Positions 35,418 to 64,000 of a DNA stretch of 64,000 nt are shown in pieces (positions within the stretch are counted from its first letter, which is position 1; each line of letters starts with the position of its first letter). Origin of the DNA: Hexactinellida sp. DTS-2022 (taxonomy: Eukaryota > Porifera > Hexactinellida). The DNA lies in the NCBI GenBank assembly GCA_028753945.1, contig JAPNXP010000009.1:5952001-6016000 (forward strand), read 5' to 3'. The notes beneath the pieces are model-generated. The model did no database searches and was not told where the DNA came from. It worked only from the letters and a program-made list of their open reading frames with translations. Position numbers and translations under genes: made by a program.

Positions 35418-35756
35418 TCATAGTTTGTCCCAGACATCCCGTTCTTCTCTCTCCTTCGCAATCTGCAGCACGTGCACTAGAATGTAGCGAATGTCCTCGT
35501 GAGGCTTAGTCCACTGTTCTGGGGGAAGAATGCGGTTCTTCATAGAGAGATCCAGCGCGCGCTTTATGCGCCAATTACGTAGGTTGTACTCATCCTCTGA
35601 GAGTCTGGTTATAGCGACAGATACATCCGGGTTAAGATGAGTCCACAGGTCGTCTAGTCGCAGTCCAAATTTTTGATGACCCACATTCTTGTACCACCAG
35701 CGGGAATATGCACTGTCGTAGCTCTTAAAAAAGTTAGGAAAGAGCCGCCGAGCCAT
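35418..35756 (-). CDS. UQCRB: Cytochrome b-c1 complex subunit 7 (complex III)
   Basis: The QCR7 subunit of mitochondrial complex III, on the matrix side, associated with cytochrome b. The 112 residues (human 111) are in one exon. The family pattern is clear: WYYKN/AAG-type start (RWWYKNVGHQKFGLRLDDL), AITRLSEDEYNLRNWRIKRALDLSMKNRILPPEQWTK, then a charged C-terminal helix ending KEREERDVWDKL. The ATG is 2 nt after CTTAG. It is the last gene of the right-hand minus-strand array, 244 bp after the M20 peptidase and convergent with tubulin. Confidence 0.93.
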   Translation of the reverse strand: MARRLFPNFFKSYDSAYSRWWYKNVGHQKFGLRLDDLWTHLNPDVSVAITRLSEDEYNLRNWRIKRALDLSMKNRILPPEQWTKPHEDIRYILVHVLQIAKEREERDVWDKL

Positions 35757-36000
35757 AGCTAAGCACTTAAAATAAACCGTTTAAATAATATTTGGAGAAC
35801 TTAAAGCTCTAGGCATAAAAACTACACTTGTGAATAGTCACACAAATATTTTCATAATTATTGTCATCTACTGTTTTAAATTATTCCTAATCGACAACAT
35901 AAACTTAAACTAAATTGGAAGAACCAAACAAAGCCTAAATTACAGGCTCATTAAGTGTAAAGTCCTTATATAACGAGCAATCTAACTCAAGTACATATCT

Positions 36001-39000
36001 TCAAAACAGTCTCGTACGAACTCCCCAGTTGAGAGTCCGAATGGGAATCCTCTCGTTGACCCCATGAAACAGCTGAACGAAAGCAATGTCATTGGGGAAT
36101 AGCGTTGGTAAGAAGCCAATACAAACTGGTACGTGAGTAGGATGTTTGATAAAATATCTCAAGTCAGTTGTGGCCGGCAATAGAAATGGAACGGCCATAC
36201 CTTCGTTGTTAGTATGTTTCAATACAATCTCTTGAATGATACGGAAATACTCTTGAACTCTCGGTTCATTAGATATTTGTTGATAACCTTCTGAGAAGGT
36301 TAATACTTCAATTTCGAGTTTCGGTTTCATCAATCCGTCAATGGATGGAACAGGTTTGAAAAAAAATTCTCCCAAAAGCTACAAAATTGTAAATACATTC
36401 ACGTGTATATAATAACAATCCGAATATTAGTACAGTTAGGTTCTTTTATTATTAACATTCAAATTTTCTTAATAATAAACAGACTTAGAAGCGAACACAA
36501 AATACAAACCCGTTGTTAAATCATAGTGCTTTTTTATAATTTTCTAATAAAAAGTTCTTCCTATAATTAAACAGACGAACAAAATTACATAAGTAGACAA
36601 AATACGAAGTTTCCAAGATAAACTTCCATCAAAACAGACGCCACGTTCCCTTCAAATAAGCCTTTGATGATTACTCGTAGACATAACGTATATAACACGT
36701 ATATATAAAGCAATAATTTATCTAGACAGAATGCATGACTAGCAATAATTTATAGATACTTACTATACTAATTATCTGAACAAAAATGGAATATCATCTC
36801 AGTTACTAACTCTTTTTGAAAGTTCTTGATAGCTAGCAATAAATTCAATTGCGCGGATTATTTCATAATGCAATAACCATAGACATCTACGTACTCCGAA
36901 TTCAGAACTGCCGAATTAGAAATTTATTAAAGAAGCAGTTTGTGTCTCAACTGAGCGCGTGAGTCCTCAAATTACTAAGTTTCAACCCAAATTCCCCAAA
37001 ACAGTCTGGTAACAATGGAGTTCAATTAAATTACTGCAAAGAAGCGATTGCAAACTAAATACAGTTGTAAAGATCGTGTAAAGTGTCAAGAATCAATACA
37101 AGGCGGGTAGACATGAAGTAAAATGGAATCAGCTGTCAATGTGATTACTTGTTTACCAATTATCAGAAGAATGCGAGCAGGAATGAAAGTTCTTGAGAAA
37201 CCTAGCTCAGTCAGACTGACAAGTATGCGCAGAATGGCTTATATAAATGTTAGTAGACCAAATTTTTGTATTTATCTACTTTGTTAGAGTTGACGAGAGC
37301 AAGTGGAACGGACCTTTTGGATGCGACGAGTAATGCAAGCTAAAACTTCTCCCGTTGAATCTTTCAAGTCCCTCAGTTGCCCTGAAGAGGAACTAAACCA
37401 TACGGAAGGTGGTGAAAAAACGAAACACCGAATTCTGGGCGTACCGTACATAGTGGGGACACCCGTCCAATCACCTAAAGGTGTTGGCAATCAGAAGCAC
37501 GAAGAAGGGCAGGGTTGGTGGGCGCATGTATACGCGGAATACGTTTATTCGAGTTTACAGAACCACCAAGAGCTGAGGATACCCTATGAGCGGAAATCCC
37601 CACAGCTGGAGTATAGACGGTATCTGGTAGACTTTATGGGTCTACTTTGTGAGAAACTCGAAATAAACATCGGCACTCAACATCTGGCCGTATACATTAT
37701 GGACCATTTTATGGACAACCACTGCATTACCGACACACAGCTGCACCTCACGTGCTTGGTCAGCCTTCAGATTGCTGCCAAATCCGAAGAGCTGGACAGG
37801 CTAATTCCGACTATTGACACGCTCTCTAGCTTCGTACACTACGCGTACGGGCCAGAGGAATTCAAGCGAATCGAGCTAGTAATCCTAAAGTTCTACAAGT
37901 GGAACTTGAACATCCCCACAGCTGCTCACTTCATCCACTACTACCTCTACAACGCTCTGCATCCGACCGATATATACCAGGGGAAGCCGTTGGAAGATAA
38001 GTTCGAAAATGCTGAAAAAGCGTTTGAGCGATATGCACACTACTTTTTAGAGATATCACTGCAAGAAATTATTTTCCTAGAACACACGCCGGCTACTGTT
38101 TCTGCGTGCTGCGTGCTGGCCAGCAGGAAATGCATGAATATACAACCGTTATGGCCCAGGAGGTTAGAGATAAAAACCGGAAAAACCGTGAAAGATCTCG
38201 CGAAATGTGGCAACTTGATGCTGAACCAGCATGACAGAGACGAGCAGGCCGAAAAGATAGAAGAGATAAACCCCGGTTCTGATGGGCATCTGCCCTCCAA
38301 CCTCTACGAGCTTCCTACACAGTTTATACATGCGTTGTGAGTACCGCGACCCGAGCACTTAGAGTCCATAAGAGTTACTAGCTGCTCTTACAATTCTATT
38401 TCCCTAATCTTCTAATGAATGATTTTATGTAAAATTGATTTGTAGTGGTATTCTCCACAGAAAGGAACAATTGACAGTTACAATTATTAGTTGAACAGTT
38501 TATATTTGGGATAACTAGAATTATTTGTGTTGGAATTGAAATCCATTTAGACATTTGCATTTGAATCATCCAAAGTTATTTTGTCAATAAAGGAAGTTGG
38601 TTTGATTTCTATTGTCTAGTTCTTATGAATTATTAAACTAAAAGTATTATGAAATGTACCTCTATCTACCCACCTCTCTCAGGTCTGCGAAATAATCCTC
38701 TTCGCTGACACCTGGTAAAACTCTTCCGTTGACAGTGAGTTCGCACCTGCTCGGTATCTGGTTGTTCTTAACACCTCCGCTCACCACAGTAGGAACAGCT
38801 GTGTTGTGCAGCATTGCGGTAAACGCACCTCGCTTATCCTTCGGTAAGAAACTGGTTGCATAGTTGGATAACCAGGGGTTGAGGATTTGTTGGAAAATAC
38901 GGTTCTTCGGGAAAGGAAGCTGAGGCGCAACAACTATAAATAGGACCTGGTGAGTAAATATGAGAATTTTCCCATAATACAACAACATTAAGTAAGAATA

Positions 39001-39880
39001 AGCTTAATAGTTAATAACCAGCAAAGAACTCTTGTACCAGTTGAGTGGACCTGAAGCGCATCTGACCAGTAGTCAGCTGCTGCGCTGCTTTGGAAATGGT
39101 GTAGATTGGATTATCGAGTGTGGGGAGACTCGCGTGCCCCCCCGGGCCTGTAGCGATCAGTTTATAGCTAGAAAATCCTTTCTCTCCGAAAGCAACTCCT
39201 ATAATCTGAGTGTCCGTCATTAAGTTCATTCCGCCGCCTTCTCCCAGCATGACGTCACACTCCACTTCTGCAGGGAAATTATCCACAATCCATTTAGCAC
39301 CTAAATACAATACAGATTATTATAAACATATTAAATAAGTGCTTAGAAGCAACAAACCAAGCTTCCCCCCTTCCTCTTCATCTGCTAATGCGATTAGTAG
39401 CAAGTCTCTCTTCATAGGAATCTCCTTTCTCTTCAGGAACAGCATAATTGAGATCGCCATTGCAACCATGTTTTTCATATCAATAGCACCTCTCCCGTAC
39501 AGACACCCGTCCTCTTCATTTACGTGGCCCCCGAACGGATCCAGCCGCCAGCCCTCTCGTCTCCAGGCCGCCTCCTCCACGGGGGCGGGCACCACGTCGA
39601 GATGCACGTTAAGAGCTAAGGGCTTGAGTGCGGGGTCAGGGTTAGTCGCTCTGAGTCGTGCGATTAAGTTTCCTCTGCCAGGAGCAGATTCTAGAATCTC
39701 AGAACATTCGATGTTTCCCTTGGAGAGAAGAGACCGGATGAATTCACAAACCGGGGTCTCATAACCTGAGTCTACTGTACCGTAGTTGATTGACTTAAAA
39801 CGAATGAGTTCTTGAAGGAGTTGTAAAGTTTGGGTTTCAACTTCCTCCCACTCGTCTGACTCAAATAGAATATCTGTCAT
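36001..39880 (-). CDS. M20-family metallopeptidase/amidohydrolase (ArgE/DapE, PM20D1-like)
   Basis: A zinc-dependent enzyme of the aminoacylase/carboxypeptidase type; the substrate cannot be told. Four exons are in phase: 39358-39880, 39019-39300, 38674-38933 and 36001-36378. All active-site elements are visible: NVHLDVVPAP (metal His, catalytic-side Asp), GRGAIDMKN (bridging Asp), ADEEEGG (general-base Glu and metal Glu), GEGG followed by the dimerisation insert GGHASLPT, and a last metal His in QLFHGVNERI. There is no signal peptide. The 2.3-kb last intron (36379-38673) holds cyclin J on the other strand. The start lies 58 bp after the stop of the upstream C1orf74-like gene. Confidence 0.85.
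37321..38340 (+). CDS. CCNJ: Cyclin J, nested antisense in the M20 peptidase intron
   Basis: Cyclin J is a metazoan cyclin with roles in germline and early cell cycles in flies. The product is about 339 residues from ATG 37321 (earlier in-frame codons open on GTG). The cyclin N box includes SPQLEYRRYLVDFMGLLCEKLEI, HLAVYIMDHFMDNHCI, QLHLTCLVSLQIAAKSEE and the linker FYKWNLNIPTAAHFIHYYL. The second fold has YAHYFLEISLQEIIFLEHTPATVSACCVLASR. The usual cyclin-A-type Lys-Phe-Glu-Glu is replaced here by Lys-Ser-Glu-Glu. It is a single exon, complete within the intron 36379-38673, in the only stretch here with plus-strand coding. Confidence 0.9.
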   Translation: MRRVMQAKTSPVESFKSLSCPEEELNHTEGGEKTKHRILGVPYIVGTPVQSPKGVGNQKHEEGQGWWAHVYAEYVYSSLQNHQELRIPYERKSPQLEYRRYLVDFMGLLCEKLEINIGTQHLAVYIMDHFMDNHCITDTQLHLTCLVSLQIAAKSEELDRLIPTIDTLSSFVHYAYGPEEFKRIELVILKFYKWNLNIPTAAHFIHYYLYNALHPTDIYQGKPLEDKFENAEKAFERYAHYFLEISLQEIIFLEHTPATVSACCVLASRKCMNIQPLWPRRLEIKTGKTVKDLAKCGNLMLNQHDRDEQAEKIEEINPGSDGHLPSNLYELPTQFIHAL

Positions 39881-39938: not shown

Positions 39939-40601
39939 TCAAAGAGCTACTATATTTAATGTTAGAATACTTGAGTGTATTTCTATACTCGTGTAACCAG
40001 CCTTGGCAGCAGTGAGGATCAGCTGTTCTTTAAGTTTCAATAAATATAATTCCCCCTTTGCTTTCTGCTCCTCAAACAAGGATAGAGGAATCGAGAATGA
40101 TATAAAGTTGAACCCAGCTGATGATATTTGGAATAGCTTGAGAGGAATATCAGATAAGCCATTCGTTTGAGTATCCAAGTGTTCTGAATTGAAATATACA
40201 AAGGGATAGCCCAGTAACCAGCCGAATACAAATGTCAATTCAAGAGGGAACTCTCCAGCTTTCAGATTAAATACGTCGGTTAAAGCAGTATTAGAGAGAT
40301 ACTGTATAATCTCAGTATTGATGAACTCAATATGCTTTATTATAATGGCATAAGATGGGTGGTTTGGTGCAATGAATGTAGGAAAATCGATCTTTGGAGA
40401 CACATCTATTACTAGCACATCAGATATGCTTCTAGTCGCTACTTGGTGGGCAAATCCGTCTCTATTTGCTATAAAAATATCGTCACAAACTTGAATAACG
40501 CACAACTGTGTTTGTAGCTGTAACTCCGTAATTAATTGCAACAACTGACAACCGGAGCACCTGAATGAGTCTACCAACCAAGCGGTCTTTATATTGGCCA
40601 T
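39939..40601 (-). CDS. C1orf74/UPF0739-like protein
   Basis: About 220 residues with start MANIKTAWLVDSFRCSGC at 40601. The ATG is 2 nt after CTTAG; the ORF extends upstream to 40682 but that part looks non-coding. The stretch LELTFVFGWLLGYPFVYF and the short two-domain layout recall vertebrate C1orf74 (UPF0739), whose function is unknown. That is recognition from memory and needs a search. There is no signal peptide and no clear membrane segment. The gap to the next gene downstream is only 58 bp. Confidence 0.5.
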   Translation of the reverse strand: MANIKTAWLVDSFRCSGCQLLQLITELQLQTQLCVIQVCDDIFIANRDGFAHQVATRSISDVLVIDVSPKIDFPTFIAPNHPSYAIIIKHIEFINTEIIQYLSNTALTDVFNLKAGEFPLELTFVFGWLLGYPFVYFNSEHLDTQTNGLSDIPLKLFQISSAGFNFISFSIPLSLFEEQKAKGELYLLKLKEQLILTAAKAGYTSIEIHSSILTLNIVAL

Positions 40602-40879
40602 AACTAAGTGGAGAGTCTTAACAACAGAACTGATTATACGCGGCGATTTTAACTTCAATATTTTTCTTATGCTTACTTCCATGTAAATGTAAAGATCAAG
40701 CTAAGAATAAAAGTACAATTTATCAAATAAACTCTTGAATTAAGCGGAAATTCTAGATCACCATTTGTGCTGTACAACAAATATAACATGGCATGCTGAA
40801 TAAGTGAAATACAACTTTAGCAAATAAATGTAGCAAGATATACAAACAGTTACTCATTAGTGTCTCTACCTGCGTGTAT

Positions 40880-43706
40880 TCACAGCTGTTTTATCTCGGG
40901 GAGACAGGTGATCACCAGCTGTTCAACAACACTGTACAGAAGATGTTTGTTAAGAATCGGATCCTGCAGCACTCTGAAGAGCTTATCCAGGCCTCTGCGT
41001 GCGTTCTCAGCACCCAGCACTTCTTGCAAGAAATCAGGTAGAGTCGTTTGCATCAGGTTATAAGCCTGTTCCTTACTCCTGGTCTTCTCTTCATCGCTGC
41101 GATTAGAAGTTTGTTTGATGTCTGAGTTGTCTTTAAGGAGAACATCTTGCAAAGATTCCAAATAGTATACAAGCATCGGTTCTGAAATGAGCCAAACAGC
41201 TGTTAATCGCAGCTGACGGTCGATAGAGCCACCAAAGGAGGCGTGAGCAATAGAAATAATCTGTCTCCGAATCCACTTGAATAGCGACCCGTCCAACTCG
41301 AACAGCTCGTGTATGAGCTCGAACATGTACTCCGCTATCTGCTCCCTCTGACTGTCCTCCTCAGTGAAGTCCTCGCTGGAAAAAGGGTTCTTAAACACGT
41401 TAGTCAGGTTCTGCAAGAAGGGACGCTCTTCGAAAGCATACGTCTGTTTGAACTGTCCGCTGACGGGACTCAGGAAGGAGTAGAGAGCCTCGCTCTCCTG
41501 CAACAGCTGTTCCTGCATGACTGTCTGAATGTACTGATTCAGGGCCTGTCTCTGCGTCTCCCACAGGGTGAATGAATTCCTATGGAACAGTCTGGGAGTT
41601 GAGTTTACTGGCAACTCCTTACGAATCTTTGGACATATTGTTGAGAGTATTTGATGGAGCTCAGAGAAGTCATTGTACGTGCGAGGTATCACCCAGCCGA
41701 GTGCCTGTCCTTTCAGATTATCATCCTCCCCTTTTGACTCAGTCTCCTTTAGCTTGGGAGACACCATGATTATGAAGATAGGATTAGCTCCGCTGTACTG
41801 CCTGGGGTCCATTTCCACGCTGGATACCTCCACGCACCAGTTCCCCAAGTTCTCTATCCAGTCTGAGGTCCGACAGAGGTAATGCTCCATCTCTTTAACC
41901 TCGCTATCCAGCTCCTCGTACGCCTTGTTCAGAGACTGCTTGTCTTCCACAGATAGCGTGCTGCTGGTCTCGAGGTGCTTCGATACAGCGTCTCTCCTCT
42001 CATACAGACTTGTAAGTCTGCTGTCCATCACACTGCATTCCTTCTCGGTAGAAGCAAACGGATTCGTTTTCTTTGTCTCCTTCTGTGTCGCCGCTTGCTG
42101 GCCAGATATCTTCTGAGGCAGATCCTTGATAGATCTCTGGTTCTCTGCTAGGAACTGCTGGTACTCAGAGCTCTCGATGAACTGAGAGAAGAACCGCTCC
42201 CTCAGCTCTTGTACTACGTACTCCTTGAAGAGAATCAGGAAAGATGGGTCGTGTGTGTTGGAGAACTTTTTAAAGAATTCCAGTTTAGAAGCCATTAGTT
42301 TAACATAGTTTGGCGAGTCAGGCTCAAGAAACCCATCCACAATTGCGTGTATGTCATTATCGAGAAAGAGCTGTGCTTGCGTCTCGAGTTCCTCCAAGGC
42401 TAGCCAGAGGTGGCAGAGAGGCGGATCCTCCATTCTCTCCAGAAACAACAGAAACGCGGTTCTTAGCTCCACGTTATCTAGGATCTCCCGCATGCCCTCT
42501 GGATACACCATCTTAACCTGGCTGTGAGGGAGGGAGTCGTCTCTCCCGGGGAGAGAAGCGGTCCTGTTCATGAGCATCGGTTCCTCTCCTGTCAAGTACT
42601 TGAGTCGCTTTTCAGATAATGTAATCGCACACCTACACTGGTTTATATACTTCTGGAGGTTTCTCCCCCGCAATCGCTGTCCCTTTGAAGCATGCATGTT
42701 CATGGCTAGTTTGTCCTGCTGCGTCTCTTGTGCATACTTCATATTTCGAATGGCAGTGGCCTGCATTATCTCCAGCATGATGCTGTAGCGGATTCGCTTT
42801 AGCTCCTCTGGGTCAGAGCACTTGTTTATAACCTTAATGAACTCCTCGTAGGTGCGCGCATACGCGAACGAAGTGTCTCGCGTTTTCTTCATATTCTCCT
42901 GCGCTTGCAGCAGTTCTACGATCTTCTGGTTGATGACGTCAGGATCAGTGATGACCTTAACAGCCGGGAGTATCACCTGGTTAACGAAGTACTCCCGTAA
43001 GAGTATGCGTAATGGTTCGCACCGCATGTCCTCCTCTTTCATACAAATGCAGAGAAATACGTCAGTAATCTGTCGGATGAAGTCAATCTCGCTCTCATTG
43101 CTCTGTAGACACGAATGGAGACATTGAGTGATGGACGCTCGCTTGACGTCCAAGGGCTCGCAGGATTTCTGACTACGAACCAGCTGCAAGTGCTGAGTGA
43201 ATAGGATGATCAGGTCTCTCGTTAGGAGAGTGACGTAATCAACTCTGATCAGTCGGTCTGCTAGCCGCTCGAACGCGCTCCACACAGTTCTACGCACCGT
43301 GAGTCTGAACTCGAACCTGTCACTCCCGAACTTTGAGTACAGCGGGAGCAGGTACCTGACCAGCACGCGGTCCAGGAAGGACTGCAGCTGCGAGTCGAAG
43401 CTCCTGGAGACGAGGAGAGGGAAGTTGGTGGCGCTGTCGGGGTAGAGAGCGCGGGACTGTAGTGTGTCTGAGACAGATAGACCGGCGTTAGACAGCTGGG
43501 TGTCTATAGGGGACAGGAACTGGGAGGGACGGGAGTGTAGGAACCCCCATACAGCGCCCAGCAGAGCTAGAACCACAGCGAGAGAGGGGAGGACTATGTA
43601 GTTAATGAATGTGGGACTGGAGAGGTTGAGGATGTACAGAGAAGCTAGCAGAGCTACGATCGTTGTTATCTTAACTTTAGTAATGCCTAAGTTAGAGAGA
43701 GTAGAC

Positions 43707-43767
<61 letters not shown>

Positions 43768-43774
43768 CTCTCAT
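40880..43774 (-). CDS. SNX25: Sorting nexin 25-like protein (TM-PXA-RGS-PX-nexin C)
   Basis: A 964-residue single-exon member of the Mdm1/SNX13/14/19/25 family, membrane-anchored proteins at ER and endosome/lipid-droplet contacts. In order: a poly-Gln tract, two hydrophobic helices (about 30-85), PXA domain, the SNX25-type spacer (TYEEFIKVINKCSDPEELKRIRYSIMLEI and GRNLQKYINQCRCAITLSEKR), RGS domain (about 430-550), coiled coil, PX domain (RTYNDFSELHQIL; LPVNSTPRLF) and nexin-C domain. The start ATG is 10 nt after CATTAG. The Gln tract is encoded by a pure CAA run. It is followed downstream by the C1orf74-like gene. Confidence 0.88.
43709..43766 (-). repeat. Pure (CAA)n tract encoding about 20 glutamines
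   Basis: An uninterrupted CAA microsatellite (GTT on the plus strand) at the N-terminus of the SNX25-like protein. Pure codon runs are usually length-polymorphic. Confidence 0.9.
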
Positions 43775-43968: not shown

Positions 43969-45750
43969 TTATAATGTAGGTTTTCGGTTGAAAATGGGAG
44001 ATAGAGCGAGCTTTGACATCTGATCGTATATCCTTACAATCTTCTCATTATCCATCAAATAATTAGTCACTTTCTTCTCGAACTGTTTGCAGATTAGCAG
44101 CGAGAAGAAGAACCTACCGTTGTAGAGTCGCTCGGGAGTTAGAATCAACCTCTGTATCCCGAGCAGACCCTTAAGAGCTAGTATATCTGTAACTACGTAT
44201 TGCCACTCACTGATGTAATGCACGGTTTTAATATTCTCACTAATCACGGCGTGTGATGAGTCCATTGGAACCAAGTCGATATGATGATCCTCTCCATTGG
44301 AGCAAGCCAGCAAACACAGCAGCAGCAGCCTCGCTATCTCCTCAGACACATTCCCCTCTCTCTGCACTAACCAGTAGTGAACCGACACCACGGGCAGGTA
44401 CCAGTACTCAGGGAGGTCGGATAGCGTAGTGATGTCAAAGTCGAGACAGTGGAACAGAAAGTCTATTTTATCCTTCTCGCTGAGCTCCGCGAGGGACGCG
44501 TGAGAGGGGACTGTCCTGCCCTTGTACATGGTGAGGGGAGGCACCCTGTCGATCCTGTGACTGAGCGGCTCTTTAGACCGCGAGTGCTCCTTTACAAACT
44601 CCTTCTGCGGACATATGATCCCGTATATAGCGCAGCGGATGTGTCTGGACACGAGCCCTGCCGCCTCCTGCGAGAAGTCCTCAGCGCGAGAGGATATGAA
44701 CACGCACTGGTCATTCAGCCCCAGGGCCCCCCAGAACACGTAGTCCAATCGGAACAGCACCTCGTAGGCTATGCTCTGCTCGCCGTCGAGAGTGCCGGAG
44801 TAATCCATCCCAAAGTAGGGCTTAGAAGCACTCAGACCAGCCAGCTTGTCTGGGTTAAATAGCTTAGTGCTGGCCGTGTCGAGGGAGTCGTCTAGCGACT
44901 GGTGGAACCGCTCGTCCATCTGGGATTTTAACCGCGAATACGCGTACATGTAGCCATCCCGATTGTGACTCTTGAGGTACTTGAGAGCTCGGTCGAACCT
45001 GCGTCGGAAGTATAGCTTCTCTCCCTCGGGTATCGATTGACCGGTGATGTAGTTAAAGGCCTCATTGACCTCATGAATGCAGTGCGGGCTGGGGATGTAT
45101 GTCTCAGGCGATGAGAGAAGGAACAGCAACGGGAGGTAGCCAGAACTGAGCGAGGTGAAGCTGATAAACCTCTCGAAAGAATACACTTTCCCTTCCAGAT
45201 AGTCTCCTTCCCATGTTATGTTACTGAGCGAGATTACGCCAGGAATGTCACAGACGAAAGATTCATTTCTATTCGTGAGGATATAAGCGTTGAGGAGCTT
45301 CGCTACGCCAACTAAAGCGGTTGAGGTCTCAATGTCAGTCGGTATCACCTCGATGTTGAGTATTCTAGCAACCTTAATGAACACATTGTATCCCAGTATT
45401 GGCATGCGGGTGTAGGGCTCGCCCTCGCGGAGGGATTTCTTAAATGTAAGCCATCTCGTCATCCGTCTGTCGAATATATCTAACTCGTTCGACTCGTGTT
45501 TCCCACATTCCATCAATATCAATATTTCAAACCCAAAATTTCGTAAGTTTATAAAAAGTCGGAATGCCTTCTCAAAGAACTCTGTGTACTGACCACCACA
45601 GAAACCGTCGAGTTTACAATCACCATAAATAGAGTTGGCGATTGTACGTCCGTCCACCACCAGTTTAGCCGGCCGGTCTTGTATAGACTGAATATCGTAC
45701 CATAGGGAGGGGTGATCTCGTAGCACTGTGAAGAGACCCTTCAGGCCCAT
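43969..45750 (-). CDS. ASTE1: Asteroid homologue (XPG/FEN1-like)
   Basis: ASTE1 is a structure-specific nuclease-family protein linked to 3' overhang trimming with shieldin in vertebrates. The product is about 593 residues from MGLKGLFTVLRDHPSLW at 45750. The ORF runs upstream to 45801, but the family N-terminus and an AG 2-7 nt before this ATG favour the internal start. The XPG-N-like region has LVVDGRTIANSIY, and the internal core has NAYILTNRNESFVCD in place of the XPG-I SSDSDF. The C-terminal half is the asteroid-specific helical region. Several acidic metal ligands of true XPG nucleases seem to be missing, as already seen in this family. It is a single exon. Confidence 0.85.
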   Translation of the reverse strand: MGLKGLFTVLRDHPSLWYDIQSIQDRPAKLVVDGRTIANSIYGDCKLDGFCGGQYTEFFEKAFRLFINLRNFGFEILILMECGKHESNELDIFDRRMTRWLTFKKSLREGEPYTRMPILGYNVFIKVARILNIEVIPTDIETSTALVGVAKLLNAYILTNRNESFVCDIPGVISLSNITWEGDYLEGKVYSFERFISFTSLSSGYLPLLFLLSSPETYIPSPHCIHEVNEAFNYITGQSIPEGEKLYFRRRFDRALKYLKSHNRDGYMYAYSRLKSQMDERFHQSLDDSLDTASTKLFNPDKLAGLSASKPYFGMDYSGTLDGEQSIAYEVLFRLDYVFWGALGLNDQCVFISSRAEDFSQEAAGLVSRHIRCAIYGIICPQKEFVKEHSRSKEPLSHRIDRVPPLTMYKGRTVPSHASLAELSEKDKIDFLFHCLDFDITTLSDLPEYWYLPVVSVHYWLVQREGNVSEEIARLLLLCLLACSNGEDHHIDLVPMDSSHAVISENIKTVHYISEWQYVVTDILALKGLLGIQRLILTPERLYNGRFFFSLLICKQFEKKVTNYLMDNEKIVRIYDQMSKLALSPIFNRKPTL

Positions 45751-48780: not shown

Positions 48781-49461
48781 CTATAACTTGGCTAGAGGGG
48801 ACAGGATTCCCTGTAGATCCTTGAACACATCTCCCTCGCTTCTAGCGCCGTCAACTAGGGTATGCAGTCCCTGTTTCTTGTAATACTCCACTACAGGAAC
48901 AGTCTGTGCGTTGAAGGTTTCAAGTCTCGTCAACAGAGTAGCCTCGGTATCATCCAATCTCTTCTCCAGAGGCTCCTCGGTGACGTCATCAACCATGGGG
49001 ACCTTTGGTGGCTTGAATATCTCATGGTACGTCCTCCCACTCGGTTTATGCAGGAGCCGCCCTGTAATGCGTTTTATCAGCAAAGCATCCTCTACATGCA
49101 GTTGGATCACAGCGTCTATTTTAGAGCTGATTCTAGCCAGGAGCTGGTCCAGGAGTTCGGCCTGCTTTATGGTTCTAGGGAATCCGTCTAGCATAAACCC
49201 GACCCCTGTCTCCAGTCGCACCAGGTTCTCCTCTATTATGCTCACCACCAGCTCGTCATCCACCAGGCCCCCCTTCTCCATTATCTCGCTGCACTTCTTG
49301 CCCAGCGCGTGACCCGACTGCACCATGGCCCTCAGCATATCTCCCGTCGCCAGGTGTTTCACGGAGAAATGTTCTAGAATGTTCGCTGCCTGTGTCCCCT
49401 TGCCGGAGCCTGGAGGCCCGATTAGAAGGATCCGAACACTAGGCTTCACTTCCGTAGCCAT
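48781..49461 (-). CDS. AK2: Adenylate kinase 2
   Basis: Interconverts ATP + AMP and 2 ADP; AK2 works in the mitochondrial intermembrane space. The 226 residues (human 239) are in one exon. It has the P-loop GPPGSGKGTQ, AMP-binding HLATGDMLRAMV, DGFPRTIKQAELLD, KRITGRLLHKPSGRTYHEIF at the start of the long LID domain, and RLDDTEATLLTRLETF. The N-terminus is short and has no cleavable-looking presequence, like the vertebrate protein. It is 114 bp after CXXC1 and 185 bp before the sorting nexin. Confidence 0.95.
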   Translation of the reverse strand: MATEVKPSVRILLIGPPGSGKGTQAANILEHFSVKHLATGDMLRAMVQSGHALGKKCSEIMEKGGLVDDELVVSIIEENLVRLETGVGFMLDGFPRTIKQAELLDQLLARISSKIDAVIQLHVEDALLIKRITGRLLHKPSGRTYHEIFKPPKVPMVDDVTEEPLEKRLDDTEATLLTRLETFNAQTVPVVEYYKKQGLHTLVDGARSEGDVFKDLQGILSPLAKL

Positions 49462-51179: not shown

Positions 51180-51914
51180 CTAACAAGCTAGGAACCCCCC
51201 ATCTACCGCTAGGGTGCTCCCATTTATCATGTCCGCTTTATCGCTCAGCAGGTAGAGCACGGCGTTAACTACATCTTCAACTTCTGCGAATTTCCCCTGA
51301 GGGATCTTAGCCATCATGGGGCCAGCCCTGGCCGGGTCTGACCAGCCCACCCTACCCATCGCAGTCATCACGACAGTGGGGTTAACCGCGTTAACTCGGA
51401 TCTGCCTCGGTCCCAGTTCCAGCGCCATGCTACGGGTCATAGCGTCTAGCGCTGCTTTAGTGGAACTGTATACCGTGTGATCTAACAGGGCCGCCTGGCT
51501 GGCCTGCGAGCTGATATTAACGATAGAACCGCCGGCGCCTCGCTCCGCCATCCCCCGCGCCACCGCCTGCGCCACGAAGAGACAGGACTTAACGTTAACA
51601 GTGAAGAGTTTGTCGAATGACTCCTCGGTCACTTCCAGGAAGGGCTGATTCTCCGCGATAGCAGCGTTGTTCACCAACAGATGGATTGGCCCCAGCTTAG
51701 GGATCTCTTTTCGCACTGCCGCGATATCTGACAGGTCCAGATGCACAGTCCGAATGGATGGCTGCTCCTTGGCTAGGGACTCCAGGTCGGAGAGGGTGCG
51801 ACTAAGCGCGATTACCTCAGCGCCACACCTCAGCAGCGCCACGGCCGTGGCTCTACCGATACCCTTGCCTGCTCCTGTAACCAATGCACACTTCCCGTCA
51901 AATCTGATCTCCAT
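51180..51914 (-). CDS. DCXR: L-xylulose reductase (dicarbonyl/L-xylulose reductase)
   Basis: An NADPH-dependent short-chain dehydrogenase that reduces L-xylulose to xylitol and detoxifies dicarbonyls. The 244 residues are exactly the length of human DCXR. Rossmann motif TGAGKGIGRAT, LVNNAAIAE, catalytic Ser in NISSQASQ, YSSTK (Tyr and Lys of YxxxK), LELGPRQIRVNAVNPTVVMTAMG and the C-terminal GGFLAC. The C-terminal Cys is shared with the human enzyme. A long TTTG repeat lies just upstream. It is a single exon. Confidence 0.92.
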   Translation of the reverse strand: MEIRFDGKCALVTGAGKGIGRATAVALLRCGAEVIALSRTLSDLESLAKEQPSIRTVHLDLSDIAAVRKEIPKLGPIHLLVNNAAIAENQPFLEVTEESFDKLFTVNVKSCLFVAQAVARGMAERGAGGSIVNISSQASQAALLDHTVYSSTKAALDAMTRSMALELGPRQIRVNAVNPTVVMTAMGRVGWSDPARAGPMMAKIPQGKFAEVEDVVNAVLYLLSDKADMINGSTLAVDGGFLAC

Positions 51915-55200: not shown

Positions 55201-56498
55201 ATAAATTATAGGGTATATGGAAACCGTTCTCCAGTAGAATGTTCTTATATCCGGCATCTACTGTATTGCATAATTATATTGTTTTATGGCGATTATGCTA
55301 TGTAGTATTCTAGCTTACAGATTGCTTGTAACATAATAAAGGTACCTGATCTAACTTTACGGTTATAAACTTCTTCTTCTCCTCTCCGAACAGGTTGAGG
55401 TCCATTTTGGAGCTGGTATTGTACCCTGGCGTCACGCCCCCTGGGAAAGGTGTCGTAAGGCCGGTCCGCGGATCTATGCTGGGCAGGGAGATAGCGCTGC
55501 TGCTCACACCGCGTAGCACCACGTCCGGGACAGGGGTGAACTTCTCCGCGCGACTGGCCCCCCTCTGCTTCTTATTTCTGACGTCACCGACCTCCGGGAT
55601 GCAGGCCCACTGCTCGGTGGACACGTGAGCCAGGTCCCGCTTGAGGCCGGCGAACTGCTGCTGTATCTTGGGTCTCTCCTCGCGGTACCGGAGCACCTCC
55701 TCTCGGAACCGCTGCTCCCTGCGCTCCTTCCTACGCCCGTCCATGCGTCTGTCTATCCCAATGTAGACCTCGTCTGCCTCCTCGTCGTCCTTCTCGTAGG
55801 GAAGGGAGCTGGAGATTATAGACTGTAGCAACTCAATTCAGGTGCCACATTAACTCATTACAGACTTATGAACATTCTTATGAGTATTATGAATATTCAA
55901 GGGAGAAAAAATGTGTTCATAATAGAGAGATAATAAACGAACTCAAGTTAATACGGAAGTCGTACGAATTGTCGTGGTACGAATTGTCGGTATCCGAGTT
56001 AATACAAACCCTAAATAATTGGTTAAATTGTGACCATAGGGCTTGTTCATAATATAAAGTTTCATTTTAAGCGACGAAAAACTGTTCAAAATAACCAGAC
56101 TTGGCTGTGTTTTGAATAAGTTGCATGGATCATCAAAAAATGAGTTGATACAGCCCTGAATTATTAATTTAATTTATTACTCATGGGTTGGATTACACAT
56201 CACACAAACACAACACAATAACACACCTGAATAGGGAGCCCCCGTACCCGGAGAACTCGTCATAATTAGTGTCATTCAGGTCCTCATCCAGTTCCTCGTC
56301 AATCTCCTGCACAGCCTCCGCGTCGCTTGACTTTTTATAAGAAACGTGTCTGTGTCTCTCGTCAGGAACGTCATTAACGTCCCTGGCGGGCCCGATGTCG
56401 GAGCGCGTCGTGAAACCTGTGGCCCCCCGCCCCACCCCCGCCTGGTAGCCCGGGGGGACAGTCTGGCCGATGAAGCTCTTCGGTTTCTTGGAAATCAT
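52232..56498 (-). CDS. PRPF6: Pre-mRNA-processing factor 6 (U5/tri-snRNP)
   Basis: A HAT/TPR-repeat protein that bridges U5 and U4/U6 in the tri-snRNP. Seven exons are in phase: 56227-56498, 55346-55808, 54756-55084, 54029-54455, 53600-53980, 52994-53373 and 52232-52775. Conserved start [21 protein letters not shown], then [160 protein letters not shown]-type (here [18 protein letters not shown]) and [11 protein letters not shown]. The product is about 930 residues, close to human (941). Four of its six introns contain inverted-repeat elements. Confidence 0.96.
53406..53567. mobile_element. pogo-like MITE in PRPF6 intron 5
   Basis: The termini CAGTCGACTTCGCTTAA and its complement ...AAGCGGAGTCGACTG are flanked by TA on both sides (53404-53405 and 53568-53569). 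It makes up about 70% of the 226-bp intron. Its interior resembles 54476-54659 (TTAATAGATTTCTCCG, CCTGGTCCCGAG). Confidence 0.85.
54476..54659. mobile_element. pogo-like MITE in PRPF6 intron 3 (same family as 53406-53567)
   Basis: It starts CAGTCGACTCCGCTTTATAG and ends TTGAGCGGAGTCCACTG, flanked by TA at 54474-54475 and 54660-54661. Shared internal words include TTAATAGATTTCTCCG, TTCACAGGATTTATAGGA and CCTGGTCCCGAG. Confidence 0.85.
55124..55263. mobile_element. 140-bp pogo-like MITE in PRPF6 intron 2
   Basis: The left CAGTGGAATACCGGTTATAA and the reverse complement of the right, CAGTAGATGCCGGATATAAG, are inverted repeats flanked by TA (55122-55123 and 55264-55265). Internal copies of 'ACCGGCAT' are seen. 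It is a different subfamily from the other two PRPF6 elements. Confidence 0.8.
55910..56093. repeat. Dispersed 'GTTCATAAT' repeat, copy 3 (PRPF6 intron 1)
   Basis: It begins GTGTTCATAATAGAGA and ends GCGACGAAAAACTGTTCAAAATAA. It shares AATTGTGACCATAGGGCTTG-like and GTTCATAATA blocks with 21740-21882. It occupies nearly half of the 418-bp first intron. Confidence 0.55.
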
Positions 56499-56698: not shown

Positions 56699-59044
56699 TC
56701 AGAATATATCAATAACTTCTCTCTTAACAGATATCATATTGTCGTCAATAACTAAGATTGACAGATACATTGAGAACAGTGCTAGTGCCGAGATAAAGTG
56801 CCACACATCGTGAAAATCGTAAAAATTGAAGAGAATACATTCGACATTCCTTTCGCGAGATGCTGAAGCAGATTCTCGCCACTGTTTAACTTTATTGAAA
56901 TAGAAAGCCAAAGCAATTATCCAGCAAATAATACTGAATATGAACAAAAGGAAAGAAGCAGTGAATACGTGTGGGCAATGTTTATATTCCTTTTTCACAA
57001 ATTTCATCACCCAATAGTATAGAAAATATAATGCAAAATTTAAGATAAATGAATAGAGAATGACTGAAGGAAAATCTGGAATAGCAGAACGCGAAAACAT
57101 CAATCCAAGAATGAGGACATTCGCGAACAAAAAACAACCAATTTGGAAAAATCTGGAACGATTATGACTGACTGCTAATAACAATTTCTTAAAATCGATT
57201 CTCCTCCTCTTCAAACAAATATCATAAAAAGACACAATAAACATCTTTGGCATCCCAAAATAGTAGAGCGAAGCAACCACCACCAATGATAACAGAATAA
57301 TCAATATAGCGTATATACCCCTTATGACGTAGAAGTAGGTATCCCCATGCCAGAGTCCGATGGAGGAGAGAGCTATTGCACTCGAGATTAGCAGAAATGT
57401 ACTTACAGCCTTCACATTTCCATCTGGGTGTCTTTGTTGGTACAACCTGACCATTATAAGCGTAAGCATGATAAACATGAAGGAGATATCGAACTGATAG
57501 TTAGCGCGAGTCGGGCAAGTGTGATAAAGCGCGCTCATAACGCCCTCTGCGATTAGAGCAACACCCATGGCATAGTACACACCGAAAAAGTACGGGATAC
57601 CATGTGCCTCATGGGACAACTGTTTATTGTGGATTTTGTAAGAGACATGACGGATCCCCACAATTACAAGGAATATAATTCCATACGTCACGTACGCTCC
57701 GTTGCTAAGGAGGTTGTTAAAGGCGCGAATTGAGCTGACCCGTCTCTCACATCTGAAGTTGTAATAGCAGAGATCTTGGTTGCGCGTGGTGATCAGCTGA
57801 TCTAGCTGGTCCAGTGCTATCTGGAGAGCTGGCATCCCATAGAACACAAACAGCACTAGGATAAAGTAGAAATAGGAGTTGTATTTCTGTCTCAAGTGGG
57901 AAGGGTGCTTCGTGTATTGACTCGGGAGGTGGAGCTGGTGATCTATGTACAAGTACTTATCCTGCTTTGCGCGATATTTCGCGATTATTTTCGGCTCTTT
58001 TTGGGTGCTTACAATGGGTGAGGTTAGTGCTAATTCATCAGAACTCTTTTCTACATGAGATTCTAAGTTTATGGAGTTTGAGGGTAAATCGATCTGAAAT
58101 GCTGGCAGTCCGATTGAGAAAAACAGGTATTTGGATTTGTTTCCAAAGAACCTCCTCAGAGACAGCTCAAAAATGAAATATCCTCCGATTAGGAGATACG
58201 GGAAGAGAAATAGAAAAACAGAGAACGCAATTCCTCTCCAGTAATTACCAGGTGAGAAAGATCTCGTAACCAGGACACTGACATTCTTTGAATAGTTCTC
58301 AGCTGTCTCGTTGCTAGAGTACTCAGTAGTGATGTCACACAGCTCCCCAGCCGCCCCGATAATAACAACAAACAGTCTGCTAGCTTTGAAGTCCTGTCTG
58401 CTCAGAGAGAGACTAGCGTCCGTACGCATCGTCATTACGTAGCCCCGGGAGCCTAGCCCTCTCAGCTGATCGCCGGGGGGACAGCTGCCCTCCTGGATTG
58501 AGACCACGCAACACAGGGCAGAACTGGAACTGAGGATTATATCGAAGTTATCCGTGTCGATCTGGTAGGAGAAGAAGCTGGGCTCCGAGGGGGACACCAG
58601 GGCCAGAGACGGCGTGTCTAACTGGAGAATGTTAGACGGAGCTGTTGCGAGCGAAAACGAATAGGAAACAGGTGCAATTGAATTCGATTCAAACCAAACA
58701 CGAATAGGAACACCTGCCTTATTGAGGCATATGGTACGTGCGGTCTTATTTACTACATTAGTGTGTGAATAGGACTGGTATTTAATAGGAAGGGCTAGGG
58801 ATTGCATTACATCCAGGTACTGTATGTACACGAATAGGGGATTGGTAGCTGAGTATAGGAGGCTTGCGGTCAGTCGGAGTGTCCCTGGTTTGGAAGTGAA
58901 AATAAAAGTATGTGTCTCATTTCTCACTACACTGTCATGGTATGTTGTGTCCAAGGAAGTGTAGTTCACTTCATATGTGTAACCATTCGCGATTTTTAAC
59001 AAAGCACATACAAGGAGAAGTATTGTGACATTAAATTGTGTCAT
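56699..59044 (-). CDS. SID1 transmembrane family protein (SIDT1/2-like), intronless
   Basis: SID-1 family proteins take up or move double-stranded RNA (C. elegans SID-1) and, in vertebrates, have been linked to cholesterol/lysosomal RNA transport. The 781 residues: signal peptide 1-22 (MTQFNVTILLLVCALLKIAN), a Cys-containing extracellular beta-rich domain with several N-glycosylation sequons to about 285, a first membrane helix near FLFLFPYLLIGGYFIF, a cytosolic loop, then roughly ten more helices. Typical signatures are YHTCPTRANYQFDISFMFIM and, near the end, FYDFHDVWHFISALALF with the conserved His residues of the CREST-type metal site. It is a single exon. Neighbours do not suggest an RNAi cluster. 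Confidence 0.93.
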   Translation of the reverse strand: MTQFNVTILLLVCALLKIANGYTYEVNYTSLDTTYHDSVVRNETHTFIFTSKPGTLRLTASLLYSATNPLFVYIQYLDVMQSLALPIKYQSYSHTNVVNKTARTICLNKAGVPIRVWFESNSIAPVSYSFSLATAPSNILQLDTPSLALVSPSEPSFFSYQIDTDNFDIILSSSSALCCVVSIQEGSCPPGDQLRGLGSRGYVMTMRTDASLSLSRQDFKASRLFVVIIGAAGELCDITTEYSSNETAENYSKNVSVLVTRSFSPGNYWRGIAFSVFLFLFPYLLIGGYFIFELSLRRFFGNKSKYLFFSIGLPAFQIDLPSNSINLESHVEKSSDELALTSPIVSTQKEPKIIAKYRAKQDKYLYIDHQLHLPSQYTKHPSHLRQKYNSYFYFILVLFVFYGMPALQIALDQLDQLITTRNQDLCYYNFRCERRVSSIRAFNNLLSNGAYVTYGIIFLVIVGIRHVSYKIHNKQLSHEAHGIPYFFGVYYAMGVALIAEGVMSALYHTCPTRANYQFDISFMFIMLTLIMVRLYQQRHPDGNVKAVSTFLLISSAIALSSIGLWHGDTYFYVIRGIYAILIILLSLVVVASLYYFGMPKMFIVSFYDICLKRRRIDFKKLLLAVSHNRSRFFQIGCFLFANVLILGLMFSRSAIPDFPSVILYSFILNFALYFLYYWVMKFVKKEYKHCPHVFTASFLLFIFSIICWIIALAFYFNKVKQWRESASASRERNVECILFNFYDFHDVWHFISALALFSMYLSILVIDDNMISVKREVIDIF

Positions 59045-59402: not shown

Positions 59403-60374
59403 CTACACTCTTTCGAGAATCCACTCTACATATCTCGCTAGCACCTCGCTCCTTTCCGGCTCCAATTCAATATACAGGTTATGCTTACAGCCTCGCCAAA
59501 CCTCCACACTCCGATCCCTACTGGAGACCGAGTCATAAACGGCAGCGGCGTTTTCTGGGGGACAAAGAGTGTCCATCTCTCCATGGGTGATTAGTATAGG
59601 TAGCGTGATCTCATGCAAACGAGGATATAAGGTATCCAGGTATTTAAGAGTGGTGATTCCAAACTTAGCCTTTATGGTTTCTTTAGCTAGTAGAGGGTCT
59701 TGTATAACTTTCTCTATCTCCGACTCATCTCGTGTTAGCCTTGTGAGATCCGGAGATACGATTGTCATTGTAGGGAAAACCTTCCCCACACACTCAAGCA
59801 GAAACCTAGGGACTTTGCCAACTGTTGCAGACAAGCTTAAATTGTTTCCCGATATTATAATTCCCTTGTACCAAGACTGGTTTTCTAACACAGCAGACAA
59901 GGATAGGGTAGCACCTAGCGAGTGACCATAAATAAACAGTGGATAGTCTTGATGGATGTCACGCATCAGTTGTACTTGCTGTATAACGTCCCGTACGTAC
60001 AGGCCTAGATCATAAACGGGACCCCTTGCGCCACCGCTCCTACCGAACCCAACCAGGTCCTGAGCAAACACAAGGATTCCATGTCGCGAAAACTCTTCCG
60101 CGTAGCCTGAAAACCGCATACAGTGATCCCCATACCCGTGCACAATACAGAGAAGAGCTTTTATCTCCGTACCCCGAGGAATCCAGGAGCAGGTGTATAC
60201 AGTGATTCCGTCAGCATTCGTAAACTCACCCCTAGTGGACAGATCAGGTGCAATGCTCCTAAGTTTGTCGATAGCTTTGCCACCTGGCGTATCGCAACCT
60301 TCTAGCTCAGAAGGAGAAGCGATTACTTGGTTCTCGTGGGTTAAAAAGTCGCTGCTCTGATAAGTAGCTGCCAT
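59403..60374 (-). CDS. Monoglyceride lipase-like alpha/beta hydrolase
   Basis: Cleaves monoacylglycerols in lipid turnover and endocannabinoid breakdown in animals. The 323 residues are in one exon. Oxyanion motif VHGYGDHCMRFSGYAEEF, then FAQDLVGFGRSGG, the nucleophile elbow GHSLGA (Ser), catalytic Asp in THGEMDTLCPPENA and catalytic His in CKHNLYIELEPER: the triad is complete. It resembles MGLL (VFAHDHVGHGQSEG, GHSMGG) but has a roughly 45-residue N-terminal extension. The start ATG is 2 nt after TTTCAG. Plant-type or bacterial MGLs share this fold, so orthology is not certain. Confidence 0.85.
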   Translation of the reverse strand: MAATYQSSDFLTHENQVIASPSELEGCDTPGGKAIDKLRSIAPDLSTRGEFTNADGITVYTCSWIPRGTEIKALLCIVHGYGDHCMRFSGYAEEFSRHGILVFAQDLVGFGRSGGARGPVYDLGLYVRDVIQQVQLMRDIHQDYPLFIYGHSLGATLSLSAVLENQSWYKGIIISGNNLSLSATVGKVPRFLLECVGKVFPTMTIVSPDLTRLTRDESEIEKVIQDPLLAKETIKAKFGITTLKYLDTLYPRLHEITLPILITHGEMDTLCPPENAAAVYDSVSSRDRSVEVWRGCKHNLYIELEPERSEVLARYVEWILERV

Positions 60375-60729: not shown

Positions 60730-63700
60730 CTAAGCGTTTTGCTCTGAATCTGAACAGTCTTGATTGTCTGTATCTTGACTAAATAATAAAAAAGTATAAA
60801 TATACATACGTAAAATGGCAAAAAATAAATGAAATATTATGTTATGTATCGACAAATATTGAAACTTACTCAGTGGAATGGAGATTAACTTGATAAATTT
60901 GATCATGATTATTACAAAAACTAGAGTCATTCTTGTCCATATCGACATCAAGTTCTGTCTTTATACAAACTCCCATTCCGATCTCCATCGATTCGGCATT
61001 TGATATGTTTAATCTCCTTGTATCAAATTGTATCGGGGTTATGCCCGTTTCTTCATTCTTAACCTCACAAATCGTTTCGTTAACGAATAGCTTTTCTCTC
61101 GATGATGACAATGAGAAATTCTGAAATGGAAGAAGAGTGTGTGCATCTTGTAGGTCATGCGGATAGAAAGAATCTCCAGCAGTCTCATCTTGATATGGTC
61201 TGAAGAAAACCGTAACAATTAATAAACGCATTACAAAGTTAGTTAATCAAATTCTAGGAAATTACAAATATCAGTCATACGTTCTAATCACAGTCTTTCT
61301 TTTCTTGAAAAGTTCATCATTGACAGTCCATACTGCTCCTCTCTGGCTAGGCAATTCTACTCGCTGGAAACATTTGTGTAGAGATAGGTTGTGGCGGATG
61401 GCATTCTATGATTGATGAATTAATAAATATGGAATGTTTAATCTACCATCACAAATACAAACAAGGATTCCTAATAACAAACATTGATAGGGTTTAATTT
61501 AGAAAATAAGCAATTTGTCTGTGTTGTTGCACTATACGAAATTCTATGAGATGGAGTAATGATTATCTAATGCAAATTGAATGACAAACCTTCCATGTTG
61601 GAGCGTTATCACGAAAATAAACGAAATTTCTTGAAAACCAATTATATATCTCATTTAGTGTAAGGTTTCGATTCTCTGACTCAATAATTGCCTAGAAAAT
61701 GAAGGAGAGTAAACCAAAGTAAATATGCATAAACAAACAGAATAACGTACTTGTCTAATAAGAGCCGCGTATGTGAACGGAGGCCTGCTGTTGATGTTCT
61801 TGAACTGCTCTAGGGTATTACGGGCATCTAAAGAAGGAACAGATAAAATGGCTAACAAAAACGCTATTTTAATAGGAATAGGTGTGTACCATCAACATCT
61901 GAGAATAGCTGCATTCTCGGCATCTTCCTGCCCGGACTGATATCGCCAGGGAGCATTCCTAGCAGGGGAGAGCCCTTGAGGTGAAAATCGAGAGGATTTA
62001 ATTCAGTTTTTATTGAAATGGGAGTTTTGGAGAATGCTGCATCACCAACGCCTAAATAGTAATAAATAATTATAACATTATGACTCAATTAAATCCTGTA
62101 CGCATTACATATGTAACTAATTACACACCAGCTATAGCAGATAGGGATACAGGAGTGAGTAGCGGAGTTGAGTTGAGTGACGGAATACTCCCTGTAGACC
62201 CAGAGGGGTACAGGGTAGGAAGCAGAGCGGAACCTAGCACAATTAATTAATTAATAAGAGTAGTATAGTACATTATTTTTTTAAGGTTGAGACCTTGGTG
62301 TAAGTCAACGCTGTAGCGGCCGCGGCCGACCCGAATCGTGGTGTAACTCCGAAAAATATTTGTGCAAAATTTACACCAAGATTGGCCTTATAAAACCCTT
62401 GGTATAGAACTGTTGTTATAATGGGATTAGCAGTTAGTGTAGTACCTGAGGGCTGTAGGATTAGGAGTGGCTGTTGCTGCGTGGAATCAGCAGTTTGGTA
62501 GACAGTAGGAAATATGTGGGGAGAGAAGGTGTGACCTTGAGAGGGCAAATGGGGTGTGACTGAAACTGGTATGAGTGAGGGACTGATATCTGCCGCTGTG
62601 GTACTGATGAAGCTGTCAGAGCTATGTTCATCAGAAGATGAGTTCGGTTTGAAAATACGAGATTCGGTATCCATAGCAGAGAAAATCGGCATAGCTGGAC
62701 CGATTATATTATTCCGAACATTTAATGGGTTGGGTTGACTGTTGAGATGTGAAGTCATGGCAGTGAGAAGAAACTTCTCTTTTTTCAACTAAAGATGGAC
62801 AGTAATAATCCCCGCAATATAGATGATTATTATCAAATATTCTATTGTAATTCCTTTGTACTAAATACAATTACATAATAGTAAGACCAATAAAAATGCG
62901 CTAGGAATTTGTTTAACTATGCTACAATAAATGAAAAAGATTACCAATACATATTATTGATACTTAGTAAATTAATTAAAAGGCTTAAAAGCTAAAAAAT
63001 AGTAGCATCATCCAGACTGTGTTTAGAAATAGATGATTACAGGAGGAAAATAATTTTATGTTTAAAAGGAATGCTTGTATAAATATTTATGTTGTTTTGG
63101 CAACATTTAACGGGTAGTCATAATTAATTTCGCCAAAAAAAGCAATCATAATCCAGATTTTGATATTAGGAATGTAATGACATTACACCTAGGAATAGAT
63201 AAACTTTGTTGCGCAATAAGAGTCCGATTTTGTAGCAATTTACCTGCTGTTCAAGATGAGTAACCATATTTTTCTGATACCTAACTTGAGCAGTAGATTT
63301 TTCGTCGAGTATATGAGTGTTTTTTATATGTCTAGAGAAAAAGTAAATAAAACATTTTATAAATAAAACATTTTAATAAGTAAAGTATTTCCAGATCGAA
63401 CGTACTGAATAAAATCTGATAGAATTGTAAAGTTTTCAGTGCATCCAGGCCATCTACACTGTTGATCTGAATATAGTACATCGTTTACAACAGATTCTAT
63501 AAATAAAGATTTCATGATTAAAATCTCATGTTAATCATGTGTATTAACAATTAAAACAATTTATGTTTTCATAGATAGCATTTTCTTCGAATCGTATTAT
63601 TTACCTGAAGTAGTTGTATTATTGTGAAGCCTCTCGTTTCTATTGGAAAACATTAATTTTATCAACTCTTGTTTAGTACTAAAATGCAATATAATAGGAA

Positions 63701-64000
63701 ACGAACATACTTATGGGCCAATCGCTTTTCCGATTTATCTGTGCAAATCGATACATGCAATTGTTGCAGAACATCAGAAGAGGCGTACCTCAGATCAGGA
63801 GAAGATCTTCTAGCAAGCTTGCCTAGTCTAGGTTTGTCCAGAGGCAATGATGTTGGTTTCTGATAATGGTGTAGCTGTCCAACTGTCAGAAACTGCTTGT
63901 AGGGAGAATGTGAATCCTCCAGTTCATTTTTCTCCTTCTTGATGAACCTGGTGTCGCCAGGACTAAGTCGTCCTTGATTAGATGAAGGATAGAGAGGGTG
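60730..64000 (-). CDS. FOXP: Forkhead box P transcription factor, N-terminus off the right edge
   Basis: A FoxP dimerising repressor. In-phase exons: 63711-64000 (partial), 63605-63639, 63416-63496, 63244-63331, 62446-62788, 62129-62233, 61890-62051, 61751-61827, 61590-61691, 61281-61405, 60870-61199 and 60730-60778. In order: a C2H2 zinc finger ([24 protein letters not shown]), leucine zipper ([35 protein letters not shown]), a Ser/Thr/Pro-rich linker, then the forkhead from [19 protein letters not shown] through [26 protein letters not shown], the recognition helix [13 protein letters not shown] and [15 protein letters not shown]. The finger-zipper-forkhead order and AVWTV identify FoxP. 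A C-terminal acidic tail follows. An SUMO-like IKTELNP and IKTELD are visible. The poly-Gln N-terminal region of vertebrate FOXP is not seen in the part present. Confidence 0.93.

Follow-up and report, generated by a model that had tools for sequence, protein, structure and literature searches.

In a glass sponge (Hexactinellida sp. DTS-2022), 13 unrelated housekeeping genes, from UQCRB to FOXP, lie head-to-tail on the minus strand at positions 35,418 to 64,000 of a 64,000-nucleotide (nt) stretch, here called the window (GenBank assembly GCA_028753945.1, contig JAPNXP010000009.1, positions 5,952,001 to 6,016,000). From this layout and from splice acceptor-like sites before the start codons, we infer trans-splicing and co-transcription: same-strand housekeeping arrays of this kind, or at least their tight runs, are probably co-transcribed and resolved by spliced-leader (SL) trans-splicing. 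Sequence statistics support the predicted trans-splicing at the array starts. Operons are likely for the tightest runs, and a single unit of all 13 genes is possible.

The stop-to-start gaps were re-measured after checking the stop codons of 13/13 array genes and the ATGs of 12/13 (FOXP was the exception). From the FOXP end to UQCRB, the gaps are 355, 358, 200, 317, 83, 114, 185, 168, 194, 197, 58, and 244 nt. The 13-gene one-strand array described in an earlier note on this DNA was thus borne out, with the 12 gaps ranging from 58 to 358 nt. Eleven of the 12 figures were the same as those given before; the gap between sorting nexin b and the C1orf74-like gene comes to 197 nt instead of 278 nt if that gene starts at its upstream ATG (40682), the earlier figure corresponding to the downstream ATG. 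All 12 gaps fall within the rule by which Oikopleura operons are defined (same strand, <=500 bp) in the available portion of PMC11067885; statements on the other cited papers likewise refer to the portions available. The argument that the tightest gaps are cramped also stood: stop-to-ATG distances of 58, 83, 98 (in the flank described below), and 114 nt leave little room.

T-rich stretches ending in TAG or CAG, resembling 3' splice sites, lie within 24 nt upstream of start codons. Examples are found at the CXXC1-like gene (TATCTATTAG, then ATG), PRPF6 (GCTATTTAG, then TAATG), and sorting nexin b (CCTTTTTCTCATTAG), and at NOP2 (TTTGCACCTTAG) and the LIM gene (ACCTTTTACAG) of a second array in the window. 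Pfam matches back 11/13 array genes, the FOXP-like and asteroid-like genes being the other two. The genes and their sites are as follows.

60730..64000, minus: FOXP-like gene, the most upstream array gene in the window; the stop is at 60730, and 64000 is the window end, not a called start
59403..60374, minus: MGLL-like hydrolase (Pfam Hydrolase_4, 1.1e-55); acceptor-like AAATTTCAG ends at 60377, 2 nt before the ATG
56699..59044, minus: SID-1-like dsRNA channel (Pfam SID-1_RNA_chan, 2.8e-128); acceptor-like site ends at 59064
52232..56498, minus: PRPF6, with six introns placed by eye (Pfam PRP1_N, 2.4e-28, and TPR); acceptor-like GCTATTTAG ends at 56501
51180..51914, minus: DCXR-like SDR (Pfam adh_short_C2, 2.5e-55); weak acceptor-like CACTATATAG ends at 51922
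49576..51096, minus: CXXC1-like gene (Pfam CpG_bind_C, 5.6e-68, and PHD), after the 83-nt gap; acceptor-like TATCTATTAG directly at the ATG
48781..49461, minus: AK2 (Pfam ADK, 4e-54), after the 114-nt gap; weak acceptor-like sites 10 and 22 nt before the ATG
45919..48595, minus: sorting nexin a (Pfam PXA-RGS-PX-Nexin_C); acceptor-like ATCTTGTCAG 4 nt before the ATG
43969..45750, minus: asteroid-like gene; acceptor-like TTTTTCCTTTAG 7 nt before the ATG
40880..43774, minus: sorting nexin b (Pfam PXA-RGS-PX-Nexin_C); acceptor-like CCTTTTTCTCATTAG ends at 43785
39939..40682, minus: C1orf74-like gene (Pfam DUF4504, 7.7e-19); acceptor-like TTTTATTCTTAG ends at 40701
36001..39880, minus: peptidase M20, exons placed by eye (Pfam Peptidase_M20, 1.1e-15), after the 58-nt gap; acceptor-like CTTCTGGTATAG ends at 39889
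35418..35756, minus: UQCRB, the last array gene (Pfam UCR_14kD, 4.3e-30); weak site GTGCTTAG 2 nt before the ATG
37294..38340, plus: cyclin J, nested between M20 exons as placed by eye (Pfam Cyclin_N, 6.4e-19; Cyclin_C, 1.3e-11)
14967..32050, minus: second array, comprising PRPF8, RPL8, NOP2, DPAGT1, RTEL1, a LIM gene, and a CUL4-like gene (names assigned by eye)

The second array, said in the earlier note to look similar, does so: its re-measured gaps from PRPF8 to the LIM gene are 188, 131, 272, 400, and 292 nt. Acceptor-like sites precede its first six genes, and none was noted for the CUL4-like gene. Nested cyclin J, previously given as the sole opposite-strand gene among the 13, was confirmed by Pfam; it is joined by a plus-strand open reading frame (ORF) of 173 amino acids (aa) at 46972-47493, antisense within a sorting nexin.

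Under a generic acceptor model, the median score over 19 window genes was 1.63, a value reached by 0/1000 dinucleotide shuffles. When 18 window genes were compared with 125 control windows from within the gaps, the median score was 1.77 versus -3.78 (P = 1.8e-7), and scores of at least 0 were found in 14/18 genes versus 24/125 controls. The two gene sets differ by a 139-aa ORF (33360-33779), included in the first and dropped from the second. The CUL4-like gene was excluded from the acceptor count (its start is unsure, with no strong site near), as were three genes that do not belong to the arrays: FNTB; beta-tubulin, where the 25 nt next to the ATG hold no YAG; and cyclin J, which has a YAG 34 nt away. 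The start codons in the window were of our choosing, which could bias the count. For the LIM gene, the start adjoining an acceptor (16705) was preferred to an upstream ATG (16744), and the upstream ATG was used for C1orf74; for the asteroid-like gene, we took the ATG that precedes MGLKGLF rather than an in-frame ATG further up.

The left flank of the window, on the same chromosome, holds a plus-strand tandem run with the same layout, for which the first in-frame ATG was taken as the start. A model trained on the window gave scores of at least 0 to 8/14 left-flank genes versus 28/148 controls (P = 0.0017) and to 4/7 further genes versus 11/69 (P = 0.0017). For all 21 genes (14 examined earlier as well and 7 new), the counts were 12/21 versus 39/217 in-gap windows (P = 2.6e-5). 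In the reverse transfer, the 14 left-flank genes, of which 13 had a usable site, served for training and the window for testing (P = 3.8e-5). Upper limits on gap length were set for PRPF8 (300), TM2D (400), and three other genes (400). Branch point-like YTAAY words occurred 10 to 50 nt upstream in 19/32 cases versus 31/99 controls (P = 0.0046). For the six PRPF6 introns, whose positions were read by eye, the 3' ends scored from -1.98 to 2.91 under the generic model, a range like that of the ATG-side sites. An acceptor upstream of downstream genes holds as a statistical trend and not gene by gene.

We also counted donor-like words (GTRAG, GTATG, and GTAAA) in the 15 gaps of up to 220 nt. Ten contained none, and the other five, before CXXC1, RPL8, PCYT1, SNARE, and CHMP6, contained one. 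In the donor-free gaps, any cis use of the acceptor would therefore require a donor inside the upstream gene, which makes SL trans-splicing the best fit. The operon reading put forward in the earlier note gains from these gaps and from the acceptor-like sites by the ATGs, including those of the left-flank array, which took no part in training; its weakest part is the treatment of all 13 genes as one unit. In the mechanism we propose, the arrays, or at least the tight runs DCXR-CXXC1-AK2 and C1orf74-M20, would be transcribed as polycistronic precursors. Trans-splicing of the leader to an acceptor immediately upstream of every ATG would resolve these to single mRNAs, and the upstream gene would be cleaved and polyadenylated within the same short gap.

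Same-strand clustering extends beyond the window. Over 164 kb of the chromosome, 54 non-nested genes form 8 strand runs versus 28.0 expected (0/100000 shuffles as low), and a conservative list of 41 genes forms 6 versus 20.9 expected. The gene list was compiled manually, some of its ORFs having been named by eye, and includes runs of 15 and 21 genes. The window alone is uninformative in this respect, as 25840/100000 shuffles that kept its make-up of 2 plus-strand and 20 minus-strand genes were as low. The left-flank run starts at a TSNAXIP1-like gene, preceded by PLK4 on the opposite strand. Its members are genes for a tetraspanin, an FHA protein, a lipoyl ligase, a CDP-alcohol phosphotransferase, ZNFX1, TRAP-gamma, TMEM254, an endonuclease/phosphatase, a cytidylyltransferase, Snf7, filamin, Ctf8, and THOC7, plus genes without a family match. 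The smallest gaps in this run are 83 and 98 nt, and gaps of 729, 851, 833, and 2306 nt also occur within it.

The best-surviving alternative is that these are dense independent genes, each with its own promoter in the gap or in the end of the upstream gene, whose monocistronic pre-mRNAs are trans-spliced outside any operon. Trans-splicing alone is no proof of co-transcription, because monocistronic genes can be trans-spliced, as happens in tunicates (PMC7986045). The same-strand order also persists across the four large left-flank gaps, where a common transcript is less likely; since these gaps interrupt the run, a one-strand run does not equal one transcript. Gaps of 58, 83, 98, and 114 nt, with their little space, speak against this account, as do strand runs of 15 and 21 genes, which would be unexpected for independent genes. 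We regard it as unlikely, while granting it real weight.

A second alternative keeps the acceptors and uses them in cis, on 5' untranslated region introns that start from a noncoding first exon within or beyond the upstream gene. The donor-like words in 5/15 short gaps and the existence of nested genes in the region lend it something, but 10/15 gaps are donor-free, and nearly every gene would need overlapping upstream exons in a region that is intron-poor; we consider it very improbable. Least credible of all is that T-rich DNA ahead of starts, together with start choice, produces the acceptor-like signal incidentally, with strand runs reflecting local history and no special processing: the signal-free uncurated ORFs, the weakness of single sites, and the author-chosen starts point that way, but the controls came from the same gaps, the shuffles preserved dinucleotides, and the model carried over to the genes of another array in which the first in-frame ATG was used.

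Several results weigh against co-transcription with SL trans-splicing. Individual sites are weak in places, with AK2, UQCRB, DCXR, and CXXC1 scoring below 0. Under the generic model, the 14 left-flank genes were only modestly above controls (P = 0.0081; 2/14 versus 23/148 at 0 or above), and a YAG within 25 nt was not significantly more frequent there (11/14 versus 45/84; P = 0.07). Uncurated flank ORFs, a set that contains transposon-like ORFs, internal exons, and doubtful starts, carried no acceptor signal (contig C18, n = 35, P = 0.14; C3, n = 10, P = 0.73; C11, n = 5, P = 0.89). The window-trained model gave low scores to 2/7 cis-intron ends (-9.61 and -7.9); it is thus something other than a plain acceptor model of this genome, and the low scores argue against full likeness between cis-intron ends and ATG-side sites. 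Gaps of 200 to 358 nt could house promoters. A predicted leader was found on only 4% of Aphrocallistes vastus long reads (PMC10282587). Finally, AATAAA/ATTAAA was not enriched after stops, occurring in 9/32 3' regions on C18 versus a shuffle mean of 9.7 (at most 33 such regions were examined), and AWTAAA was present in 5/15 gaps of up to 220 nt. If separate mRNAs are produced, their poly(A) sites must fall in these short gaps. The best other hexamers were modest (ATTTTC in 11/32 versus 4.5; TTGTAT in 10/32 versus 5.1). The missing AWTAAA enrichment would agree with the downstream acceptor fixing the 3' ends.

Co-transcription with SL resolution has counterparts among known systems. SL trans-splicing has been reported in hexactinellids (PMC7986045; PMC10282587), with a trans-spliced leader of ~37 bp in A. 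vastus (PMC10282587). The SL operons of the tunicates Ciona and Oikopleura resemble the sponge array in their head-to-tail unrelated housekeeping genes, short gaps, and trans-splicing (here predicted). They differ in size: up to seven genes are described for Ciona operons, and one cited Oikopleura operon has nine, versus 13 genes here. The median operon gap in Ciona is 1 bp, in contrast to 58 to 358 nt here. In Caenorhabditis operons (SL1/SL2), an acceptor stands at each downstream gene, and an AAUAAA-type signal is expected in the gaps of nematode operons. The sponge array differs in having no AWTAAA enrichment, and a second leader type has no support here; short gaps are common to both (~100 bp in C. 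elegans; PMC7986045).

Kinetoplastids have long one-strand arrays of unrelated genes with few introns and no AAUAAA signal. The sponge arrays are likewise long, one-stranded, and composed of unrelated genes with few introns and no AAUAAA enrichment, but unlike kinetoplastid directional gene clusters, they have introns and nested opposite-strand genes. A trypanosome-like mode of expression would involve units of 13 to >20 genes, trans-splicing of nearly all mRNAs by the ATG, and a downstream trans-splice site, not AAUAAA, that fixes the 3' end; we think it rather doubtful that the sponge goes so far.

Some particulars of the array genes deserve mention. Forkhead matches of the FOXP gene, from a genome search, lie at window positions 61310-61408 and 61584-61706, and the subfamily was assigned by eye. 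The asteroid-like gene encodes a 617-aa protein with no match in Pfam, NCBIfam, or PDB, and the name is one that we presume to fit. It has a PXA-RGS-PX-Nexin_C sorting nexin on either side (40880-48595); these are perhaps old tandem duplicates, and the second opens with a polyglutamine run of ~20. In the Pfam scan, the CXXC1-like protein (49576-51096) matched PHD and CpG_bind_C and none of the CXXC zinc finger families. Much of the PRPF6-DCXR gap is occupied by a microsatellite (window 51951-52093) with 36 copies of a tetranucleotide that reads CAAA on the gene strand. PRPF6 introns (53400-54680) contain inserts that resemble one another and short mobile elements, with words like GACTCCGCT.

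Elsewhere in the window, short ORFs at 3984-4403 and 8356-8739 are related, bZIP-like by eye, and suggest local duplication. Four calmodulin-like ORFs (named by eye), in two similar pairs of mixed orientation, cluster in the C18 block 34547-40791. Samples of contigs C3, C11, and C7 were housekeeping-poor by eye and uninformative on arrays. With regard to an SL RNA gene, an Rfam scan of the window gave no match. A linkage of SL to 5S genes was dropped: two 5S loci have in common only the 5S gene and its close flanks, with no further repeat unit. The small nuclear RNA (snRNA) genes found were U1 (at least 2), U2 (at least 2), U4 (at least 1), and U5 (at least 1); a RACC-type element ~58 nt upstream is common to all copies found and is a candidate snRNA promoter element.

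The assembly comprises 112.4 Mb in 18 contigs, compared with an estimated 141 Mb for a chromosome-scale hexactinellid genome (PMC10232365). Its compact, intron-poor character with nested genes fits Hexactinellida. PRPF8 has a 2366-aa frame without a stop, and the 139-aa ORF (minus strand), which has no Pfam or NCBIfam match, lies on the opposite strand within the first intron of beta-tubulin (33214-35133, plus; exon 1 at 33214). Single-exon and nested genes also abound in A. vastus, whose 19,578 genes include 2432 that are nested and which has 12,409 single-exon transcripts (PMC10282587). The genome gave no candidates for the Wnt ligand family PF00110, a search in which none of 14 control genomes was positive, so that absence is not proven; the same type of search gave 8 forkhead matches. 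Two genome matches to the DIX domain could be axin rather than dishevelled. For let-7, there was no 18-mer match at <=1 mismatch, and an Rfam search returned 0, which does not prove absence. Lack of let-7 is a non-bilaterian trait. According to an Oopsacas paper, wnt is missing from glass sponges and, apart from them, from myxozoans alone.

In its available portion, a 2021 paper gives operons as unreported for glass sponges, and our literature search, whose coverage left most subscription journals outside, found no later report of hexactinellid operons. The A. vastus paper does not treat operons in its main text ("operon" appears a single time, in the title of a cited work, and "polycistron" never; PMC10282587). 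Judged by the tunicate operon sizes cited, arrays as long as those described here would be unusual among animals. If the co-transcription proposed here is true, there would be consequences for gene annotation in glass sponges, and sponge operons would provide a deep, separate case for whether trans-splicing enables operons or the reverse.

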